From Streptomyces aurantiacus (GTDB lineage Bacteria; Actinomycetota; Actinomycetes; Streptomycetales; Streptomycetaceae), in NCBI RefSeq assembly GCF_027107535.1, contig NZ_CP114283.1, positions 5,828,001 through 5,892,000 on the forward strand: DNA of 64,000 nucleotides, written 5' to 3'. The position numbers were made by a program, and so were the translations under genes. This document shows, in pieces, positions 23,248-32,165 of this stretch. The notes below the pieces were generated by a model. That model searched no databases, was not told where the DNA came from, and saw only the letters and a list, made by a program, of their open reading frames with translations. Position 1 is the stretch's first letter, and each line of letters opens with the position of its first letter.

Positions 23248-24360
23248 TCAGGCCCCGGCCACCGGCAGTGTCACTTCGAATCGGCAGCCGCCCGGGACGT
23301 TGCGCACCGCCGCCTGACCTCGGTGTGCCTCGACGATGCCCCGGACGATGGCGAGACCGAGGCCGGCACCGGCCGGCGGGGTGCGGGCGTGCGTGCCACG
23401 CCAGCCGGTGTCGAAGACCCGCGGCAGGTCCTCCTCGGGGATACCGCCGCAGCCGTCCGTGACGGACAGGACCACACCGTCCGGGGAGCGCTCGACGGCG
23501 ACCGCGACCGTACCGTCCGAAGGGGTCCGGCGGATCGCGTTGACCAGCAGATTCCCCAGCACCCGGCTCATCTCCTTGCCGTCCACCTCGACCGGTACCG
23601 GTTCGATGCGGTCGCCGACCAGCCATACCCCGTACTCGCGGGCGAGGGCGTCCGCTCCCGCGAGGGCGTCGCCGACGAGGTCGTACACGGACATACGCGC
23701 AGGGGAGAGAGCGAGCGCCCCGGCGTGGATACGGGAGAGTTCGAAGAGGTCGCCCACCATGTCGTTGAGGCGTTCGACCTCCGTCCGCATCTGGCGGAGA
23801 TAGCGCTGGGGGTCGGCGGCGACGCCGTCCTCCAGCGCCTCGGACATGGCGCGGAGCCCGGCGAGCGGAGTGCGCAGGTCGTGCGAGATCCACGCGACGA
23901 GTTCGCGTCTCGATGTCTCCAGGGCGCGCTCGCGGTCCCGGGACTCCGCCAGCTTCGCGCTGGTCATGGCCAGCTCCCGGCTCAGCTCGGAGAGCTCGGC
24001 GGTCACCGAGCCCGCGGGCGCCGCGAAATGACCACCCTCACCGAAGGAGCGGGCGGCCGCGGTGATCGCCCGGCTGCCCGCGACGACCCGGCGGCCGAGC
24101 AGCAGTGCGGTGGCCAGGGAGACGACCGCCGCCATCGCGACGACCATGGTGACGACGGTCAGGTCGTGCGAGTTCAGGAACATGGCCCAGGCCACGGCCA
24201 GCGTGCCCGCGAGCATGGACGCCACGGCCACCGCCACGACCACCGTGAGGGACGCCGTCAGTGAGCGTCGCCGGATCAGCCACAGCACACCCGCCCCGAG
24301 CAGCCCGGCCACGACGGCTCCGAGAAGGGCGAAGAGGGCGATCAGCAGGAAGTCGAGCAC
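23248..24360 (-). CDS. Sensor histidine kinase of a two-component system
   Basis: 370 residues from the GTG at 24360, 2 bases after the response-regulator stop. Three hydrophobic segments (about 4-29, 35-60 and 66-88) with only very short loops between them, so there is no extracytoplasmic sensor domain; sensing is probably in the membrane or through a partner. A HAMP-like linker leads to HisKA with His160 (AWISHDLRTPLAGLR) and a HATPase domain with LGNLLVNAIRRTP, DGCGGIPEEDL and GAGLGLAIV. It is co-transcribed with the OmpR-type regulator and belongs to the GACGTC-N3-GTTTCGT group. Confidence 0.92.
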   Translation of the reverse strand: MLDFLLIALFALLGAVVAGLLGAGVLWLIRRRSLTASLTVVVAVAVASMLAGTLAVAWAMFLNSHDLTVVTMVVAMAAVVSLATALLLGRRVVAGSRAITAAARSFGEGGHFAAPAGSVTAELSELSRELAMTSAKLAESRDRERALETSRRELVAWISHDLRTPLAGLRAMSEALEDGVAADPQRYLRQMRTEVERLNDMVGDLFELSRIHAGALALSPARMSVYDLVGDALAGADALAREYGVWLVGDRIEPVPVEVDGKEMSRVLGNLLVNAIRRTPSDGTVAVAVERSPDGVVLSVTDGCGGIPEEDLPRVFDTGWRGTHARTPPAGAGLGLAIVRGIVEAHRGQAAVRNVPGGCRFEVTLPVAGA

Positions 24361-24362
24361 GG

Positions 24363-25112
24363 TCAGACCGCCTCCTCGTGTGGTGTGACGTCGAAGCGGT
24401 AGCCCACTCCCCACACCGTCTGGATCAGTCGAGGGCGGGCCGGGTCGTCCTCCACCTTGCCCCGCAGCCGCCGTACGTGGACGGTGACGGTGGACAGGTC
24501 GCCGAAGTCCCAGCCCCACACCTCACGCATCAGCTCTTCGCGGCTGTAGGCGCGGCCCTGGTTGCGCAGGAGGAACACGAGAAGGTCGAACTCGCGCAGG
24601 GTGAGGCCGAGTTCGATGCCGTTCTTGGTGGCGCGGCGGGCGGCCGGGTCGGCGGTGATACCCGCCGCGTGCACGGGCTGGGCGGCGGGGGCGGGCCGGG
24701 TCCGACGCAGGACCGACTCGACCCGCAGCACCAGCTCACGAGGGCTGAAGGGCTTCGTGACGTAGTCGTCGGCGCCCACTTCCAGGCCGAGGATCCGGTC
24801 CCCCTCGTCACCGCGGGCGGTGAGCATGATGACCGGCACGGGTCCGCGGGCCCGGATCCGGCGGCACACCTCCAGGCCGTCCATGCCGGGCAGCATCAGG
24901 TCCAGTACCACCAGGTCCGGCCGGTGCGCGGCGGCCCGCGCGAGCGCGGACGGCCCGTCCTCGGCCCGGTCGACCTCGTACCCGGCGCGGTCGAGGTAGC
25001 CGGAGACGACCTCGGCGACGGTGGGGTCGTCGTCCACGACGAGGACGCGGGGCGCGCCCGCGTGTCCGCGAGGAGCGGAGCCGGAGCCCGGGGGTTCGTG
25101 CGGTTGCTGCAT
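24363..25112 (-). CDS. OmpR-family response regulator
   Basis: 249 residues. Receiver domain with the acidic pair in VVDDDP, phosphoacceptor Asp71 (VVLDLMLPGMDG), Thr in MLTAR and Lys in VTKPFSP. The C-terminal winged helix is of the OmpR/PhoB type (LTLREFDLLVFLLRN, SREELMREVWGWD, TVHVRRLRGKVE). The start lies 47 bases from a copy of the GACGTC-N3-GTTTCGT element, which recurs before the surrounding envelope-type genes. This makes the regulator the prime candidate for binding it. A 22-residue Pro/Gly-rich tail precedes the receiver. Confidence 0.95.
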   Translation of the reverse strand: MQQPHEPPGSGSAPRGHAGAPRVLVVDDDPTVAEVVSGYLDRAGYEVDRAEDGPSALARAAAHRPDLVVLDLMLPGMDGLEVCRRIRARGPVPVIMLTARGDEGDRILGLEVGADDYVTKPFSPRELVLRVESVLRRTRPAPAAQPVHAAGITADPAARRATKNGIELGLTLREFDLLVFLLRNQGRAYSREELMREVWGWDFGDLSTVTVHVRRLRGKVEDDPARPRLIQTVWGVGYRFDVTPHEEAV

Positions 25113-25159: not shown

Positions 25160-25180
25160 GACGTCCTTGTTTCGTAAGGA
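25160..25180 (+). promoter_or_regulatory. Shared regulatory element, copy 1 (GACGTC-N3-GTTTCGT-AAGGA)
   Basis: Located 47 bases upstream of the response-regulator ATG. The same 21-base pattern recurs at 26631, 30546 and, more weakly, 32145. It overlaps a second symmetrical sequence, GGACCTGAGGTCC (25178-25190), seen only here. Element and positional conservation are direct observations; binding by the neighbouring regulator is inference. Confidence 0.65.
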
Positions 25181-25229
25181 CCTGAGGTCCACGTGGTTCG
25201 CCAGCTCGCGGCAGGCCGGGCTTACGCCG

Positions 25230-26582
25230 TCACCATCCCGTCAGCAGCAGATGATTGACGAGGAGGGCGAGGACCGCCTGGGCGGTGAGCCAGGCGCGGG
25301 GCCGGGTCAGGAACGCGCACGCGGGGAGCAGCCACAGCGCGAACGGCAGCCAGATGCGTTCCGTCTCCGCCTTGCTCATCCCGGAGAGGTCGGCGGTGAG
25401 GAGTGCGAGCAGAGCGGCGGCCACGAGCAGGGCGAGCCGGGCGTCGGGGGTGACGGCGACCGAGCGCAGGCACCTGCGGAAGCCCTTGCGCACCGGAGCC
25501 GTGCCGGCCCGCCGCAGGCCCGCGACGGTCGCCGGGCCGATCACCAGGACCGTGCACGCGATGTTCGCCCACACCCAGTACCCGAACGGCCGGATCCCGC
25601 CGGCCCCTTGGTAGTACCGGGTGACGAGCAGCCGGTACGCCTCCCACCAGTTGAAGCCCGCGAACGTGAACGCGGCCGGCACGACGACGAATCCGGCGAT
25701 GAGCCACGGGAGCGGTCGGAGCCTTCGGGAGCCGAGCAGCAGGACGCCGCCGGCGATCACCGCGAGCAGGGTCAGCCCGTACGACAGATACGCGGTGAGG
25801 CCGAAGAGGAGCCCGGAGGCGAGGCCTGCCGACCGTGGGCGGTGTCCTGTGAGCGCAAGGGCGAGGAACGCGACGGCCCAGGCGGCGACCGCCGCGAAGT
25901 ACCCGTCCGCGGAGGTGCCCATCCACACGGCTGCCGGGGCCAGGACCATGAAGGGCGCGGCCCGGCGGGCGAGTGCCTCTCCGCACAGTGCGCGCACGGT
26001 GACGAGGACCGCCAACGCCGCTGTCGCCCCGACGGTGACGCACCAGACGCCCGCCCACGCCCCGCCCGCCAGGCCGAGCCGGTCGAGGAGGGCGAAGGTG
26101 AGGGTGGCCGCGGGTGGGTGTCCGGCGACGTGCGCGGGCCAGGCGTCCGGTGAGTGCATCAGGATGTGTTGGGTGAAGTCGCGCAGGGCGGCCGGGATGT
26201 CATGGAAGCGGTTGACGGGGTCGATGACCTGGAGGTACTCGTACTTGGTCGTCAGCCGCCGGGCGACACCGCGCTGCCATCCGTCGACCAGCGCGAGCGA
26301 GAACGTCCATGCCAGGGCGGTACCCCACGCCGTGACCAGCAGGGCCCGCCAGGGCAGCCGGGCGGCGACGCGCGGCCCGTACGCGACGACGGCGACGGCG
26401 ACGATGATCGCGGCGGGGGTGCCCGGGCCGGCGTGCGGCTCCCAGTAGGCGTACAGGGGTGGCCACCTGACACGAAGGGTTCCGTACCGGTGCTCCATGA
26501 CGGTGCCGATCACAGCCGCCGTCGTGACGAGCAGCGCTGCGGCCAGGGCCGCGAACAGGTCGCGGAGAAGATCGCGGTTCAC
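25230..26582 (-). CDS. Polytopic membrane protein, GT-C glycosyltransferase-like
   Basis: 450 residues, GTG start at 26582, about ten membrane helices. The topology (one helix, then a long loop with WEPHAGPG, and VAGHPPAATLTFALL in a later loop) and the sparse charged loops resemble GT-C mannosyl- or arabinosyltransferases that use polyprenyl-phosphate sugars. The expected catalytic Asp in the first loop is not obvious (VRWPPLYAYWEPH has Glu). A -10-like TAGCGT lies 6-7 bases before the GTG, so translation may be leaderless. Divergent from the molybdopterin oxidoreductase, with an element of the shared motif between them. Confidence 0.7.
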   Translation of the reverse strand: MNRDLLRDLFAALAAALLVTTAAVIGTVMEHRYGTLRVRWPPLYAYWEPHAGPGTPAAIIVAVAVVAYGPRVAARLPWRALLVTAWGTALAWTFSLALVDGWQRGVARRLTTKYEYLQVIDPVNRFHDIPAALRDFTQHILMHSPDAWPAHVAGHPPAATLTFALLDRLGLAGGAWAGVWCVTVGATAALAVLVTVRALCGEALARRAAPFMVLAPAAVWMGTSADGYFAAVAAWAVAFLALALTGHRPRSAGLASGLLFGLTAYLSYGLTLLAVIAGGVLLLGSRRLRPLPWLIAGFVVVPAAFTFAGFNWWEAYRLLVTRYYQGAGGIRPFGYWVWANIACTVLVIGPATVAGLRRAGTAPVRKGFRRCLRSVAVTPDARLALLVAAALLALLTADLSGMSKAETERIWLPFALWLLPACAFLTRPRAWLTAQAVLALLVNHLLLTGW

Positions 26583-26630
26583 ACCGGCACGCTAGGCCGG
26601 GGAGGGCCGGACGGGACTGCGGGGACCTCG

Positions 26631-26651
26631 GACGTCAGCGTTTCGTCATGA
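26631..26651 (+). promoter_or_regulatory. Shared regulatory element, copy 2 (GACGTC-N3-GTTTCGT-CATGA)
   Basis: Lies between divergent genes, 48 bases from the GTG of the membrane protein and 44 bases from the ATG of the oxidoreductase. Candidate -10 elements (TAGCGT on the minus strand, TACGGT on the plus strand) flank it at about 32-42 bases, so it sits next to both -35 regions. Confidence 0.65.
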
Positions 26652-26695
26652 GTTGCGGGCCCTGTCCTCGGCATGTCCCGGCCTACGGTCGGGGC

Positions 26696-27940
26696 ATGCG
26701 TGACCATCGACTCCCCACCTCCCCCGGTTTCTGGCGCAGCCCGTTGCGCGGCCCCTGGTTCACCTCCGTCCTCGGCATGGTGCTGCTCGTCGGGATCACG
26801 GTGCTGTTCGTGACGGGCCTTCTGTCGTACGCGGCCTACAACCCGGAGCTGTCGCCGGTGAACGACAAGACCCCGGACAAGGGTCTGCTCGGTTTCTACC
26901 TGTTCGCCTGGCCGACCGACCCGCCCTGGCTCTACCGGCTCACCCAGGGCGTCCACGTCACTCTCGGCATCGTGCTGATCCCCGTACTGCTGGCGAAACT
27001 GTGGTCGGTCCTGCCGAAGCTGTTCACCCTGCCGCCGGTGCGGTCGCTCGCGCACGCACTGGAGCGGGTCTCGCTGCTTCTGCTGGTCGGGGGCGCGCTG
27101 TTCGTGTTCGTCACGGGCGTGCTGAACGTCCAGCTCGACTACCTCTTCCCCGGCTCCTTCTATCCGCTGCACTTCTACGGGGCCTGGGTGTTCTTCGCGG
27201 CGTTCGTGACACACGCGGTGCTGCGGGTGCCGGCCGCGCTGCGCAATCTGCGGCACCTGCGCGGGGAGGGCAGCGAGGAGGGCAGCGAGCTGGTCTCCCC
27301 GGCTCCCGCCCCGCCCACCGTCTCGCGACGCGGCGCGCTCGGCCTCGTAGGCGGTGGTTCCCTGCTCCTGCTCGTGACGACGGCGGGGCGGAGCTTCGAC
27401 GGACCCCTGCGGGAGACAGCTCTGCTCGCTCCGCACGGCGGCCCCGAACCGGATTCGGGGCCCGGCGGCTTCCAGATCAACAAGACGGCCGCGTCGCGTG
27501 GGATCAGCGCGGCGGAGACGCGTGACGAGGCGTGGCGGCTGGTCGTCGAGGGGAACGGACGGACGGTTCGCCTGAGCCGGGCGGATCTCGCCCGACTCTC
27601 CCTGCACAGCGCCGCGTTGCCCATCGCCTGTGTGGAGGGGTGGTCGACGTCCGACCAGTCGTGGCGGGGTGTCCGCCTGCGGGACCTTGCGGCCCTGGTC
27701 GGGTACGAGCGCGGCGCGGCGCCCGACGTACTGGTGGAGTCGCTCCAGCGGCACGGGTCGTTCCGCCGGGCCGCTCTGCGCGACAACCAGGTGCGCGACC
27801 CGCGTGCCCTGCTCGCCCTGTTCGTCAACGGTGAGCCCCTGACCCCGGACCACGGCTATCCGGCGCGGATCATCGTGCCGGCCGCGCCCGGTGTGCTCAA
27901 CACCAAGTGGGTGGCTCGGATGACCTTCGGAGACCTGTGA
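26696..27940 (+). CDS. Membrane-anchored molybdopterin-dependent oxidoreductase (cytochrome-b-like anchor plus sulfite-oxidase-type domain)
   Basis: 414 residues from the ATG at 26696. Residues 20-200 form four to five membrane helices with His in HVTLG, HFYGAWVF and FVTHAVLR that could bind haem. A further hydrophobic stretch (about 220-240) leads to an extracytoplasmic domain of the sulfite oxidase/YedY type. Cys312 in ALPIACVEGWS is the probable molybdenum ligand. Such enzymes are fed electrons by the fused b-type module. Candidate -10 TACGGT lies 6 bases before the ATG (possibly leaderless). Coupled to the next gene by TGATG. Confidence 0.82.
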   Translation: MRDHRLPTSPGFWRSPLRGPWFTSVLGMVLLVGITVLFVTGLLSYAAYNPELSPVNDKTPDKGLLGFYLFAWPTDPPWLYRLTQGVHVTLGIVLIPVLLAKLWSVLPKLFTLPPVRSLAHALERVSLLLLVGGALFVFVTGVLNVQLDYLFPGSFYPLHFYGAWVFFAAFVTHAVLRVPAALRNLRHLRGEGSEEGSELVSPAPAPPTVSRRGALGLVGGGSLLLLVTTAGRSFDGPLRETALLAPHGGPEPDSGPGGFQINKTAASRGISAAETRDEAWRLVVEGNGRTVRLSRADLARLSLHSAALPIACVEGWSTSDQSWRGVRLRDLAALVGYERGAAPDVLVESLQRHGSFRRAALRDNQVRDPRALLALFVNGEPLTPDHGYPARIIVPAAPGVLNTKWVARMTFGDL

Positions 27941-28431
27941 TGCGACGACGTGCGACACGACGGCTTCCGGTGCGCCGGTACGCGGGGAGCCCGCTTCAAC
28001 TCCTGCTCCTGGCCTGCTCGTTCACTCTCGCCGGGTATGCGGGTGTGCGGCTGCTCGCAGACGACTGGCTCTCGGTCGCGCTGTGGTTCGTGGGCGCGGC
28101 GCTGGTGCACGACTTGGTGTTGCTGCCCCTGTACGCGGGCGCCGACCGGGCCGTCACGCGAGCGCTGGGCATGGCCGGCCGCCGGGAGTGGACGGTCTTC
28201 GTACGCGTCCCGGCGGCGCTCTCCGGTCTGCTGCTGCTGATCTGGTTTCCGTTGATCAGCGGGCAGGTGGCCGACCGCTATCGATCTGCCACCAGCATGT
28301 CCGGCGACGGGTTCCTGTCCCGTTGGCTGCTGATCACGGCGGTGCTGTTCGGCGGTTCGGCGGTACTGCTCCTGCTGAGGTCGCTGCGGTTGCGCAGGGC
28401 GACGAAGGAGCGGCCCCCGGCCGTCCACTGA
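27940..28431 (+). CDS. Small four-helix membrane protein coupled to the molybdopterin oxidoreductase
   Basis: 163 residues; its ATG overlaps the preceding stop. Four hydrophobic segments (about 15-33, 40-62, 85-108, 130-150) and an Arg-rich N-terminus. No recognised family and no haem motif beyond one His (LVHDLVLLPLYAG). The tight coupling suggests an assembly or electron-transfer partner of the oxidoreductase. Its last 154 bases overlap the convergent methyltransferase gene. Confidence 0.75.
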   Translation: MRRRATRRLPVRRYAGSPLQLLLLACSFTLAGYAGVRLLADDWLSVALWFVGAALVHDLVLLPLYAGADRAVTRALGMAGRREWTVFVRVPAALSGLLLLIWFPLISGQVADRYRSATSMSGDGFLSRWLLITAVLFGGSAVLLLLRSLRLRRATKERPPAVH

Positions 28432-29129
28432 CGCTCCGGGCGCCAGCCGGCGCGTGTCGCGAGCCGGAGCAGAGGCGGTGTGCCGAGGCGGGCCCAGGGG
28501 AAGTGCGGGCCGGCCGTGCCGTGAGTACCTGCGGCCAGGTGGACGACATGGACGGTGACCCGTTCGTCGACGTCTCCGTCCAGGACGGTCTCGACGAGCA
28601 ACAAGCCCTCTTGGTTGAGGAGTTGGGACATGCGCCGCAGGAGGGCCGCCGGATCACCGCCGATGCCGATGTTCCCGTCGATGAGAAGGGCGGTGTCCCA
28701 GCGCCCTTCTCCGGGGAGCGGTTCGAAGACCGAGCGCCGCAGCGCCTGGCCGCCGAGTCGCACGGTGCGGGCGACGGCTGCTTCGCTGACATCGACGCCC
28801 AGCGCGGGCCGGCCTCTGGCCGCGAGTTCCGCGACGAGCCGTCCCGGTCCGCACCCCACGTCGAGGACGGCCCCTTCGCAGTGGTCCAGAACCTTGATGT
28901 CGGTCGTGTCGGCGGTGGCGCACCAGCGTTCCACCTCCAGCGGCATCAGCCAGCCGTCGGTGCGGCGCAGGAAGAGCGGCCCGCGGCCGGTGGCCAGTGC
29001 CTCGGAGTACGGGTCGGCGGCCCACGGACGGGGGATGCCGACGGGCGCGAGGGGCCCGAGGGCCGCAGGGGGCGCGGGACGATCGGGGCCGGCCCCCCGA
29101 GACGACGTGATCTCGTGTGCGGTGCTCAT
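28278..29129 (-). CDS. Class I SAM-dependent methyltransferase of the glycosyltransferase operon
   Basis: 283 residues; start ATGA overlaps the DUF2064 stop. AdoMet motif I is VLDVGCGPGRLVAEL at about residues 88-102, then VDVSEAAV. The recognisable domain ends near SFVALRN at about residue 245. The last 35-40 residues run antisense through the end of the convergent membrane-protein gene and look non-conserved, so the stop has probably moved. Third gene of the operon with GT2 and DUF2064; the substrate is likely a glycolipid or sugar intermediate. Confidence 0.82.
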   Translation of the reverse strand: MSTAHEITSSRGAGPDRPAPPAALGPLAPVGIPRPWAADPYSEALATGRGPLFLRRTDGWLMPLEVERWCATADTTDIKVLDHCEGAVLDVGCGPGRLVAELAARGRPALGVDVSEAAVARTVRLGGQALRRSVFEPLPGEGRWDTALLIDGNIGIGGDPAALLRRMSQLLNQEGLLLVETVLDGDVDERVTVHVVHLAAGTHGTAGPHFPWARLGTPPLLRLATRAGWRPERQWTAGGRSFVALRNRSDLSRSSTAEPPNSTAVISSQRDRNPSPDMLVADR

Positions 29130-29743
29130 CGACGGGCAGCCGCCCCAAGACGTCCCAGCTCAGCGGCGAACCGGCTCTCCGGGGCCGCCAGGGCGACCGC
29201 CTCCGCGTCACGGGCCGTGTCCACGTCCCGGAGGCGCGGCAGCTCACGCACACGCAGGCCCGCGACGACGAGCCGCTCGAACTGCACGGCGCCCGTCGTG
29301 GGCGTCGACATCGGTACGCCGCGCAGCAGCCCGGGGTCGGGGTGGGCGAGCCCCAGCGCCCAGAAGCCGCCGTCCTCGGCCGGCCCGAAGTACGCGTCGC
29401 AGCCGGTGAAGTCCACGGTGAGCAGTTCCGGGGTCACCTGTGGGGTGTCCATGCCGATGAGCAGCGCGGGTCCGTCACAGGCGTCGAAGGCGGCGGCCAG
29501 CCGCTCGTCCAGGTCTCCCGCGCACTGCGGGACGACGTCGAAGCCGGGCGGCAGCCAGGGGCCCGGAGCGCCGTCGAGCACCAGCACACGACGCCGAGCG
29601 GGGGTGGCCGCCACCGCACACAGGGTGTCCGCGAGTGCCGCCTCGGCGAGCGCCGCAGCTTCCCCGGGCGTGAACGGCGGGGTGAGGCGGGTCTTGACCC
29701 GTCCCGGCCGCGGTTCCTTGGCGATGACGAGGAGTGTGGTCAC
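29126..29743 (-). CDS. DUF2064 (TIGR04282-type) nucleotidyltransferase/glycosyltransferase-like protein
   Basis: 205 residues from a GTG that overlaps the GT2 stop (GTGA). Opening motif LLVIAKEPRPGRVKTRLTPP and later ALLIGMDTPQVTPELL and GPAEDGGFWALGL are the signatures of this GT-A-fold family. It usually lies beside a GT2 gene of the kind found here, as in arsenosugar and rSAM-associated clusters. No radical-SAM gene is present in this cluster, so the product differs or is made elsewhere. Confidence 0.88.
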   Translation of the reverse strand: MTTLLVIAKEPRPGRVKTRLTPPFTPGEAAALAEAALADTLCAVAATPARRRVLVLDGAPGPWLPPGFDVVPQCAGDLDERLAAAFDACDGPALLIGMDTPQVTPELLTVDFTGCDAYFGPAEDGGFWALGLAHPDPGLLRGVPMSTPTTGAVQFERLVVAGLRVRELPRLRDVDTARDAEAVALAAPESRFAAELGRLGAAARR

Positions 29744-30498
29744 TGGGAGGTTCCTCCTGGAAGTACGGCGAATGAGCCGTTGACGGCCCCGTCGCGGGGG
29801 ACCGGTGGTTCGGCCAGGACCCGGCTCATGTCCCGTACCGCCTGCCAGGTGCCGCGCCAGGTGCCGGTGACCTTGGAGTCACCGGTGCGTGGCAGGTACG
29901 GCACGTCGTGCTCCACGACACGCCAGCCGGAGTCGGCGGCGCGGACGACCATCTGCAGCGGGTAGCCGCTGCGGCGGTCCGTGAGCGCGAGGCCGAGCAG
30001 TTGTTCGCGGCGGCCCGCACGGAGCGGTCCGAGGTCGTGCAGACGCAGCCCCGTGCGGCGGCGCATCATCCGTGCCAGCACGAGGTTGCCCGCCCTGGCG
30101 TGCGCGGGCCAGGTGCCACGGCCCTGCGGGCGGCGCCGCCCGAGCACGAGGTCGGACTCGCCCTGCTCCACCTCGCGGACGAAGGGCACGAGGAGGGACG
30201 GGTCGAGGGAGGCGTCGCAGTCGCAGAAGCACACGATGTCCGCGGTGGCCGCGGTCAGCCCGGCGTGGCAGGCGGCGCCGAAGCCGCGACGGGTCTCGTG
30301 CACGACGGTCGCGCCGAGGTTCCGGGCCAACTCCGGTGAGCCGTCCGTGGATCCGTTGTCCACCACCAGCGCACGCCATGTGGAGGGGATGCGGTCGAGC
30401 ACCCAGGGCAGGGCCTCGGCCTCGTTCAGACAGGGAAGAACCACGTCGACGGACGCCGTGGTCGTCGCCGCTTCCGATTGCGTTGCGGGAGAGGTCAT
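29740..30498 (-). CDS. Family 2 glycosyltransferase
   Basis: 252 residues from the ATG at 30498; an upstream GTG (30510) is also possible. GT-A fold: VDVVLPCLNEAEALPWVLD, VVDNGSTDGS and the metal-binding DxD pair Asp93/Asp95 in CFCDCDASLDP, similar to polyprenyl-phosphate glycosyltransferases. No C-terminal membrane anchor is seen. First gene of a three-gene operon with 4-base overlaps. A copy of the shared element lies 47 bases upstream, with a -10-like TAGGGT about 10 bases before the ATG. Confidence 0.9.
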   Translation of the reverse strand: MTSPATQSEAATTTASVDVVLPCLNEAEALPWVLDRIPSTWRALVVDNGSTDGSPELARNLGATVVHETRRGFGAACHAGLTAATADIVCFCDCDASLDPSLLVPFVREVEQGESDLVLGRRRPQGRGTWPAHARAGNLVLARMMRRRTGLRLHDLGPLRAGRREQLLGLALTDRRSGYPLQMVVRAADSGWRVVEHDVPYLPRTGDSKVTGTWRGTWQAVRDMSRVLAEPPVPRDGAVNGSFAVLPGGTSQ

Positions 30499-30545
30499 CA
30501 CGTGTTTCACCCTACGAAGACAAAGGGGATATAGCGGGCTCCGGC

Positions 30546-30566
30546 TTCTTACGAAACGCGGACGTC
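30546..30566 (-). promoter_or_regulatory. Shared regulatory element, copy 3 (GACGTC-N3-GTTTCGT-AAGAA)
   Basis: Reads GACGTC first on the minus strand, toward the GT2 operon, 47 bases from its ATG. In orientation and in distance to the -10-like sequence it matches copy 2 as seen from the oxidoreductase gene. The rest of the 308-base gap 30499-30806 shows no convincing gene. Confidence 0.65.
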
Positions 30567-30806
30567 GGGGCCGCGGGAGAGCGCGACCGGGGCATGCGGA
30601 AGCGGACCGCTTGCCTGAGTGGCGCAAGTCCCCGCACACCGGACCCACTTCATGGGGACACGACGTGACCCGGACACGGAAGACAGAGGGCTTCGCGCGA
30701 GGCACGGCCGGTTCACCACCGTCACCCGCGGGAACCCATGGATTGCACATCGCTTCGACCGGCCGGGAGTTGGAAGCACCATGCCTCGCGAAGAGAGCTG
30801 AATCCG

Positions 30807-31019
30807 ATGCCGACGCCTCAAGAGAGGTCACGGCGTGCGAGTACCGCGTTGCCGGCGACTTTCGCACTGGCCGTCGTTCTGAACCTGGCCGACGCGGTCT
30901 GGGACCCTTCCGGCGAGGCGTGGTTCGCCTCGCGCGTCGCCGTGTCGGTCCTCTTCACCGTCGCCCTGGTCGCGTTCGCGGCACAGCAGCTCAGGAACCG
31001 CGGACGCCAACGCCCTTGA
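30807..31019 (+). CDS. Small membrane protein, unknown
   Basis: 70 residues from the ATG at 30807, with AGAGAG upstream. Two hydrophobic stretches (about 12-25 and 38-58) and basic ends (RRAST, LRNRGRQRP). No family recognised. It lies alone between the divergent GT2 operon and the convergent SDR gene. Confidence 0.5.
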   Translation: MPTPQERSRRASTALPATFALAVVLNLADAVWDPSGEAWFASRVAVSVLFTVALVAFAAQQLRNRGRQRP

Positions 31020-31098
31020 GAACCGGCCGACCCTCGCTGCCTCATCGGCGCCGCCGGCCCGACAGCCGAGGAGCGCTCCCTCGCTGCCGGGCCGAGCG

Positions 31099-32094
31099 CT
31101 ACTCGCCGCGCAGCCTGGCCGTCGCGAATTCCCGCATGCCCTCCTCGAACCCGACTTCGGGTTTCCAGGCCAACTCGCCTCGCAGCCGCGCCGAGTCCGC
31201 CGTGATGTGGCGTACGTCCCCCAGTCGGTACTCCCCCGTCACCACGGGCTCAGGACCGCCGTAGGCGGAGGCCAGTGCCTGCGCCATCCGGCCGACCGTG
31301 TGGGGCTCGCCGCTGCCGGTGTTGTACGCGACCAGGGATCCGGCCCGGGGTCCGGCCTCCAGCGCGGCCACGTTCGCCGCCGCCACATCGCGTACGTGCA
31401 CGAAGTCCCGGCGCTGGCCCCCGTCCTCGAAGACGCGCGGGGCCTCGCCCCGGGCGAGTGCGGACCGGAAGAAGGACGCGACCCCCGCGTACGGGGTGTC
31501 GCGCGGCATGCCCGGCCCGTAGACGTTGTGGTAGCGCAACGAGATCGCGGAGCCGTCCGTGGACCGGGCCCACGCCGCCGCCAGATGCTCCTGGGCCAGC
31601 TTGGTCGTCGCGTACACGTTCCTGGGGTCGACCGGAGCGTCCTCGCCGACCAGCCCCGGCGTCAACGCCTCCTGGCACCGCGGGCACCGGGGCTCGAACC
31701 GCCCCGCGTCGAGGTCCGCCACGGTCCGGGGGCCGGGTCGCACGGTCCCGTGCCACTCGCAGGCGTACGAGCCCTCGCCGTACACCACCATCGACCCAGC
31801 CAGCACGAGCTGTCGTACTCCCGCGTCGGCCATGGCGGCGAGCAGCACCGCCGTACCGACGTCGTTGTGCGACACGTAGTCGACCGCGTCCGAGAACCCC
31901 TTCCCGAGCCCCACCATCGCCGCCTGATGACAGACGGCGTCCACGCCCGGCAGTGCGGCGGCGACCGCCGCCGCGTCGCGCACGTCCGGACCGTCGCGCA
32001 GGTCGAACACGACCGCCTCGTGCCCCCGCGCGGTCAGCGCCTCGACGACATGACACCCGATGAACCCGGCTCCGCCGGTGACCAGTACTCGCAT
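31099..32094 (-). CDS. Extended SDR (NAD-dependent epimerase/dehydratase) with an embedded Cys/His ribbon
   Basis: 331 residues from the ATG at 32094. Rossmann motif TGGAGFIG at residues 6-13, catalytic Tyr161/Lys165 in YATTK, and the nucleotide-sugar epimerase-type C-terminal part (RDFVHVRDVAAANVAAL). Between the Ser-containing strand (SMVVYGEG) and the Tyr there is an insert of about 45 residues with CxxH (Cys112, His115) and CxxC (Cys137, Cys140), likely a zinc ribbon. A -10-like TAGCGT lies 7 bases before the ATG (possibly leaderless). Probably makes or modifies a nucleotide sugar for the neighbouring glycosyltransferases. Confidence 0.88.
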   Translation of the reverse strand: MRVLVTGGAGFIGCHVVEALTARGHEAVVFDLRDGPDVRDAAAVAAALPGVDAVCHQAAMVGLGKGFSDAVDYVSHNDVGTAVLLAAMADAGVRQLVLAGSMVVYGEGSYACEWHGTVRPGPRTVADLDAGRFEPRCPRCQEALTPGLVGEDAPVDPRNVYATTKLAQEHLAAAWARSTDGSAISLRYHNVYGPGMPRDTPYAGVASFFRSALARGEAPRVFEDGGQRRDFVHVRDVAAANVAALEAGPRAGSLVAYNTGSGEPHTVGRMAQALASAYGGPEPVVTGEYRLGDVRHITADSARLRGELAWKPEVGFEEGMREFATARLRGE

Positions 32095-32144
32095 ACACGA
32101 GACGCTAGGACCACCAGCGCGTCGTGGGGCAGCCACGCGCCCAT

Positions 32145-32165
32145 GACGTCACAGGCCCGTAAGAC
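32145..32165 (+). promoter_or_regulatory. Weak fourth copy of the shared element, upstream of the SDR gene
   Basis: GACGTC-ACA-GGCCCGT-AAGAC: the GACGTC block, CGT and AAGA are kept, but three positions of GTTTCGT differ. It lies 50 bases from the SDR ATG in the same orientation and distance as copies 1 and 2 relative to their minus-strand genes. Confidence 0.4.

Follow-up and report, generated by a model that had tools for sequence, protein, structure and literature searches.

A 64,000-nucleotide stretch of the Streptomyces aurantiacus genome (contig NZ_CP114283.1, positions 5,828,001 to 5,892,000; hereafter the window) carries, around a two-component system, several copies of the element GACGTC-N3-GTTTCGT. 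We consider it very probable that the neighbouring OmpR/PhoB-type response regulator (RR) uses this element as its operator, and that the two form an autoregulated regulon in which predicted leaderless promoters would be activated. Besides RR and its sensor histidine kinase (HK), the cluster encodes a membrane glycosyltransferase of predicted GT-C fold (GTC), a molybdopterin oxidoreductase (MOX) with a small membrane protein (MEM), a family 2 glycosyltransferase (GT2) with a DUF2064 protein and a methyltransferase (MT), and a nucleotide-sugar epimerase/dehydratase (SDR) (Table 1). Systems of this kind, autoregulated OmpR-type regulons, are ordinary; the comparative evidence is unusually clean. 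The sequence, geometry and conservation of the element are directly observed, as is its loss together with the regulator, and it is this co-loss that argues most strongly for RR as the probable binder.

Occurrence and conservation of the element

A pattern search of the window found three exact copies (operators 1–3 in Table 1). The sequence-only reading that had pointed out the element placed them at 25160, 26631 and 30546; the first two positions stand, and the third is the end of a longer match, the core of which lies at 30551–30566. A fourth copy, at 32145 on the plus strand, which that reading had recorded as degenerate, has three mismatches. Because 22 matches with at most three mismatches were observed in the window against 25.3 expected, this copy alone is insignificant; it is rescued as a genuine site by an operator class present in 67 of the 69 SDR upstream regions, and thus represents a third class rather than a merely degenerate copy. 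The 9.9-Mb genome contains four exact copies, three of them within a 5.4-kb stretch of the window and the fourth, together with a one-mismatch partner 3.8 kb off, inside a second copy of the cluster; the reversed control pattern has zero exact matches in the whole host genome. The genome-wide scan suggested earlier as a check was accordingly strongly favourable, with all exact copies confined to the two cluster copies. Across Streptomyces, the strict pattern occurs in 179 of 295 genomes (reversed control, 1/295) and the relaxed pattern in 203 (control, 2), and at the family level the relaxed pattern occurs in 91 of 200 genomes and 8 of 17 genera (control, 4). A chance origin is ruled out by the genome scan, the reversed controls, these counts, and the upstream-region tests described below. 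With up to two mismatches, 186 matches in the host genome stand against 111 for the reversed control, among the matches listed, and therefore no additional regulon member is claimed there; two candidate further sites (L263 and L264) were single and unconvincing.

Conservation was examined around 80 MOX-encoding loci, the best 80 of more than 500. In 1.59 Mb of sequence, all 136 matches with at most one mismatch (102 exact and 34 with one) lie near cluster genes; of those with two mismatches, 21 are close to a cluster gene and 12 are not. The upstream-region test covered 78 MOX, 72 GT2, 66 RR, and 62 GTC regions, restricted to regions of at least 200 bases and to protein matches of at least 55% identity starting no later than residue 25. 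Sites scoring at least 10 with a position-specific scoring matrix (PSSM) have an orientation fixed for each gene, being forward at 71/71 MOX and 69/69 GT2, and reversed at 63/63 RR and 58/58 GTC. The misses are L067, L080, L083, L086, L089, L090, and L096 for MOX; L067, L080, and L094 for GT2; L067, L080, L083, and L092 for GTC; and L019, L029, and L032 for RR, all three of which have a site before GT2. Since MOX and GT2 sites from these very loci served to train the PSSM, the counts are not independent; random windows from those loci gave 0/493 scoring. The training has no bearing on the results for the SDR regions, the lineages lacking RR, the 30 genomes opened as a follow-up, and the other genera. 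In one other genus, the site was found at seven loci, between GTC and MOX (L215, L219, and L222), before RR (L217, L220, and L223), or before GT2 (L216). The element is conserved in the orthologous intergenic regions, and the lack of conservation named beforehand as evidence against it did not occur.

The usual gene order is GTC(-) operator MOX(+) MEM(+) MT(-) DUF2064(-) GT2(-) operator RR(+) HK(+) SDR(-), in which one operator serves each of the divergent pairs GTC/MOX and GT2/RR, so that its orientation differs between genes. The unequal orientation of the sites in the window, which the sequence-only reading had left to be explained, follows from this divergent order. In the window and in S. 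canus V4I20 (L018), RR–HK is found beyond GTC instead, and separate operators precede RR and GT2; a rearrangement has split the GT2/RR pair in the window.

Some other sites were recorded in the course of these searches. A recurring variant, GNCGTAAGNNTTTCGTCA, with both half-sites TKACG-like, is present in L017 at 13800, L027 at 16959, L176 at 356, and L178 at 351; in L017 and L027 it is an extra site upstream of SDR. The sequence GACGTCCC[CT]GTTTCGT between pfkA-like and CtaG-like genes of three genomes (L126, L133, and L136; names read from translations) was excluded, having neither the flanking bases nor a cluster gene.

Architecture of the operator and the promoters

Column profiles of 74 MOX and 70 GT2 sites reveal two classes, GACGTCAGCGTTTCGTCATG (MOX/GTC) and CGACGTCCGCGTTTCGTAAGGA (GT2/RR), and the SDR promoter has its own third class, CTTACGGANNNRTGACGT. 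On the opposite strand, the three classes read TGACGAAACGC-TGACGTC, TTACGAAACGC-GGACGTC, and TTACGGACCCG-TGACGTG, and all contain a direct repeat, TKACG-N6-KGACG, with the half-sites 11 bp apart, a geometry that would be expected for a regulator of the OmpR/PhoB type. For the SDR class, TTAC-N7-KGAY is found in the above-mentioned 67 of 69 upstream regions (those of 67 loci, the window, and the second cluster copy), compared with 3/6900 shuffled controls; its centre is 58–60 bp from the ATG in 66/67 regions, and 1–2 bp closer under another way of counting.

The distance from the operator centre to the start codon is 55.5 bp for RR, 56.5 bp for GTC, 57.5 bp for MOX, and 58.5 bp for SDR, and is 57.5 bp (GTG) or 60.5 bp (ATG) for GT2. 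The near edge is 48–53 bases from the start codons at the window promoters; the earlier reading had given 44–50 bases. Four of the five window promoters, namely those of GTC, MOX, GT2, and SDR (TAGCGT in the last), have a TANNNT box 12–16 bases ahead of the start codon, and leaderless transcripts are therefore predicted at these promoters. This agrees with the earlier count of four promoters with -10-like elements; the weak element claimed at the RR promoter was not recovered, a search of that promoter in the window finding no TANNNT box. Across loci, the column profiles show a -10 box at a near-fixed distance from the operator towards MOX, GT2, and GTC, and no conserved -35 consensus is visible in them.

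Co-occurrence of the regulator and the operator

An RR ortholog (E ≤ 1e-80) was found in 236 of the 295 sampled Streptomyces genomes; for a two-component system of this breadth, the operator is hereby defined, a regulon outlined, and a hypothesis on its signal put forward that can be tested. According to a hand count from printed rows, the relaxed motif is present in 192 of the 236 genomes with RR versus 11 of the 59 without it, leaving 44 and 48 motif-negative genomes, respectively. Thirty of these 44 were opened, and in 25 a variant operator (PSSM at least 10) stands beside RR; in three of the 25 (L178, L181, and L194) it overlaps the N terminus of RR, which is variable. An operator also stands beside the RR gene in genomes with another gene order, and loci without RR but with RR elsewhere in the genome (L040, L047, L093, and L094) have operators before at least one target.

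The most telling cases are S. bohaiensis (L067) and S. albidoflavus (L080), in which GTC, MOX, GT2, and SDR are kept and the best RR match is only 48–49% identical. These two species, both without an RR ortholog, account for the only SDR regions without the operator (2/69), and they also have no operator before MOX, GT2, and GTC. In a four-protein tree of 70 sequences, they are placed on separate branches, their neighbours being L074 and L082, both with RR and the sites. S. bohaiensis keeps GACGTCAGCCGTTTGC at the old site, with one half intact and the other decayed, and -10 boxes, judged by eye, on both sides. Two further RR-less genomes, G129 (nearest to L067) and G116 (nearest to L081, L093, and L097), have kept MOX and lost the GTC–MOX operator, the GTC–MOX promoter region being the one inspected in them. 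Among the 48 genomes with neither RR nor motif, three still encode MOX, two without an operator there and one (G214) with it. Such joint disappearance of the regulator and its sites from separate lineages shows regulon decay in a clean natural case. Together with the position beside RR in altered gene orders and the 11-bp direct repeat, it bears out the earlier proposal that the element belongs to RR, as far as comparison of sequences can.

Proposed mechanism and alternatives

Most probably, a head-to-tail dimer of phosphorylated RR would bind the two half-sites and, from ~57 bp upstream of the predicted leaderless starts, activate promoters with a TAGNGT/TACGGT -10 box and lacking a recognisable -35. 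The regulon would consist of RR–HK (autoregulation), GTC, MOX–MEM, GT2–DUF2064–MT, and SDR, with one operator for each divergent pair in the usual order, and HK might sense an envelope or redox signal within the membrane. Binding, the requirement for phosphorylation, activation, and the membrane-sensed signal are what we infer from the sequences. More tentatively, and with rather less than even confidence, the cluster may constitute a family-wide envelope redox/glycan stress system. In it, a kinase sensing within the membrane would link molybdoenzymes of the sulfite oxidase type, which have cytochrome-b-like membrane partners, with polyprenyl-linked sugar transfer by GT2, GT-C, and epimerase, and two divergent leaderless promoters, almost equally far from one asymmetric operator, would both be driven by it. 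This close match in spacing on the two sides offers a test bed for bidirectional activation by an asymmetric dimer.

Several observations weigh against activation by RR from this operator. A site near -57 alone is no proof of activation, and the profiles across loci show no -10 at a fixed distance towards RR. Five of the 30 opened genomes have no site beside RR, four of them (L180, L197, L201, and L203) having none in the RR locus and one (L176) only away from RR; the RR genes of G052 and G064 are without their own site. MOX at separate loci in the RR-positive L086, L089, and L090 has no site, and in L083 the match before MOX is weak. Conversely, the site is present without a detected RR in G024, G194, G092, and G292, and in G214, which is 81% complete and has no RR at E 1e-80. 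The first four are among the 11 motif-positive genomes without an RR match, of which seven were opened at the site or at RR (G164, G035, G240, G024, G194, G092, and G292) and G151 at the site, the other three being G047, G062, and G170.

An unlikely alternative is that the same RR acts on the same operator as a repressor of the cluster, with the signal relieving repression. Autoregulation and shared operators would suit it equally well, and the retention of the targets with their -10-like boxes in the RR-less S. bohaiensis and S. albidoflavus is compatible with either sign. The operator centre, however, lies ~57 bp upstream of the predicted starts without overlapping the -10 box, and the lack of a conserved -35 consensus is as expected of promoters that need help, both of which favour activation.

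Considerably less probable is that a different DNA-binding protein recognises the element and that the RR gene is merely one of its targets, as the sites without a detected RR and the RR genes without a site might suggest. The absence of RR is nevertheless uncertain in G024 and G194, the contigs of which end inside the cluster, and in the incomplete G214. A partly matched, two-frame or divergent RR is present in G164, G035, and G240; G292 (L124/L208) has an operator scoring 34.4 before a membrane-protein open reading frame (ORF) truncated where the contig ends; the site in G092 is not flanked by any cluster gene, and the G151 match scores below 8. The co-loss of RR and sites in separate lineages, the repeat geometry suited to the OmpR/PhoB family, and the sites beside RR in altered gene orders speak for RR as the binder. 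Lastly, a sigma-factor -35 or another core promoter part, to which the location upstream of a conserved -10 at four promoters might point, is hardly credible, since the near edge is 37–38 bases from the -10 at GTC and MOX, a distance too long for a -35 and on which that identity was rejected, and since a single copy with two conserved half-sites serves two divergent genes.

Genes of the cluster and comparison with known systems

Table 1. Operators, -10 boxes, and genes of the cluster in the window
Feature	Position	Strand	Remarks
Operator 1, before RR, reading backward relative to RR	25160..25175	+	Exact match; PSSM 32.1
Operator 2, common to divergent GTC and MOX	26631..26646	+	Exact match; PSSM 35.4
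Operator 3, before GT2	30551..30566	-	Exact match; PSSM 35.0
Operator 4, SDR class, minus-strand sequence CTTACGGGCCTGTGACGT	32145..32160	+	Class in 67/69 SDR upstream regions; PSSM of other classes only 4.2
-10 box TAGCGT of GTC	26589..26594	-	Conserved
-10 box TACGGT of MOX	26684..26689	+	Conserved
-10 box TAGGGT of GT2	30509..30514	-	Conserved
HK, sensor histidine kinase	23248..24366	-	HisKA 62.8 bits; HATPase_c 80 bits
RR, OmpR/PhoB-type response regulator	24363..25112	-	Response_reg 116.2 bits (cutoff 30.2); Trans_reg_C 95.3 (26.2)
GTC, GT-C-fold membrane glycosyltransferase with a GTG start predicted to be leaderless	25230..26582	-	Predicted structure
MOX, membrane-anchored molybdopterin oxidoreductase, sulfite oxidase superfamily	26696..27940	+	Oxidored_molyb PF00174, 89.1 bits (cutoff 24)
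MEM, small membrane protein, overlapping MOX stop codon	27940..28431	+	Conserved beside MOX; no family match for overlapping ORF
MT, SAM-dependent methyltransferase (ORF as listed; 3' end overlaps MEM)	28278..29129	-	Methyltransf_23
DUF2064 (CofC-like) protein	29126..29743	-	PF09837
GT2, family 2 glycosyltransferase, GTG or ATG (30498) start	29740..30501	-	Glycos_transf_2
SDR, NAD-dependent nucleotide-sugar epimerase/dehydratase	31099..32094	-	Epimerase 150 bits

RR and the adjoining HK together have the domains of an OmpR/PhoB-family two-component system (receiver, winged-helix, HisKA, and HATPase_c). The closest solved relatives of RR by sequence are MtrA (2gwr) and RegX3 (2oqr); MtrA is also its best NCBIfam match, yet RR stays below that cutoff (NF040689; 241 of 300 bits) and below that of PhoB (TIGR02154; 228.4 of 296.2 bits). 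The GDLSTVTVHVRRLR stretch, at least 95% conserved in 63 aligned sequences, is taken as the probable recognition helix. Hydropathy and conservation indicate that HK has three hydrophobic segments near the N terminus and almost no extracytoplasmic loop. Intramembrane-sensing envelope-stress kinases likewise have three hydrophobic segments and hardly any outside loop. In the second, whole copy of the cluster (L017; G000:C2:3578000-3597000), which adjoins an RpoA-like gene and has both operators, the reading frame of the kinase is interrupted, whereas that of RR is open and has the same GDLSTVTVHVRRLR stretch, and hence the window kinase may serve both regulators. The kinase gene in L039 and L069 and the regulator gene in L206 are split over two frames in the assemblies, which is either real or a sequencing error.

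GTC has zero Pfam or NCBIfam matches, and its predicted structure has a GT-C membrane fold, matching the folds of AglB, ALG12, PMT, and ArnT. GT2 resembles polyprenyl-phosphate sugar synthases, the top NCBIfam matches being under cutoff; taken jointly, GT2, GT-C, and the epimerase point to a transfer of lipid-linked sugars on the outer side of the membrane. In MOX, Cys312 and several His are invariant among 22 aligned sequences. MOX is below the MsrP, SorA, SorT, and SoxC cutoffs, by a wide margin for MsrP (28.6 of 207 bits); it is unlike MsrP also in being fused to its own membrane part. The mean pLDDT of its structure model, 56, is too weak for fold claims.

The nearest precedent, by analogy, would be Escherichia coli HprSR–hiuH-msrPQ, an OmpR-type system that likewise adjoins, and controls, a molybdoenzyme of the sulfite oxidase superfamily that has a membrane partner; the HprR boxes occupy the intergenic DNA that separates hprR from the enzyme operon (PMC9302797). 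The HprR box CATTACAAAATTGTAATG is an inverted repeat, in contrast to the direct repeat found here, and the passages on HprSR name no glycosylation genes (PMC9302797). S. coelicolor PhoP is an OmpR-family regulator that also uses 11-nucleotide direct repeat units upstream of its targets (PMC7866108). PhoP differs from the window RR in its half-site, which in the PHO box is GTTCACC, and in its target genes. CutRS and CssRS are conserved Streptomyces two-component systems for envelope-related stress; unlike RR, CutR binds TAWATAAA, had no site found at the cutRS promoter, and has targets including htrA3 and htrB (PMC12802291). SatKR was excluded as the S. coelicolor counterpart, being a NarL-type system, and a 2022 review that tabulates S. 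coelicolor regulators leaves 11 of its 23 OmpR-type entries unnamed (PMC9739842). The literature searched, with most subscription journals outside its reach, contains no description of a two-component system with this operator. SCO0551/0552 may be the counterpart, a guess only, and the literature search listed no paper specifically on it.

Operator sites outside the cluster

Six examined genomes, two from Streptomyces and four from two other genera, also carry the operator before a second Oxidored_molyb protein (MOX2). A cytochrome b561 protein comes after MOX2, and the pair is not linked to the canonical cluster. In the two Streptomyces genomes, G052 and G064, RR–HK is 4–5 kb from the operator-carrying MOX2, and no further cluster gene was found in the surrounding 13–14 kb. 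In G400, G388, G335, and G471, of the other genera, the MOX2–cytochrome b561 pair has the site near the MOX2 start; in G335 and G471 it touches the predicted start, so that the start codons need care. Unlinked MOX2 proteins are below the MsrP cutoff (60.1 and 49.6 of 207 bits). In G070, the site stands between RR and a third, divergently oriented oxidoreductase (39% to MOX). From the sites of MOX, MOX2, and the G070 enzyme, molybdo-oxidoreductases are the most recurrent target seen.

Operator loci of the MOX2 type are L146, L214, L224, L228, L230, L231, and L232. Among nine stretches, five have MOX2–cytochrome b561, two the canonical GTC–MOX, and two (L225 and L227) the site before a sigma-factor-like gene; in these two genomes GACGTCAGACTTTCGTCACTCAATC precedes a gene that, in our own reading, resembles an ECF (extracytoplasmic function) sigma factor.

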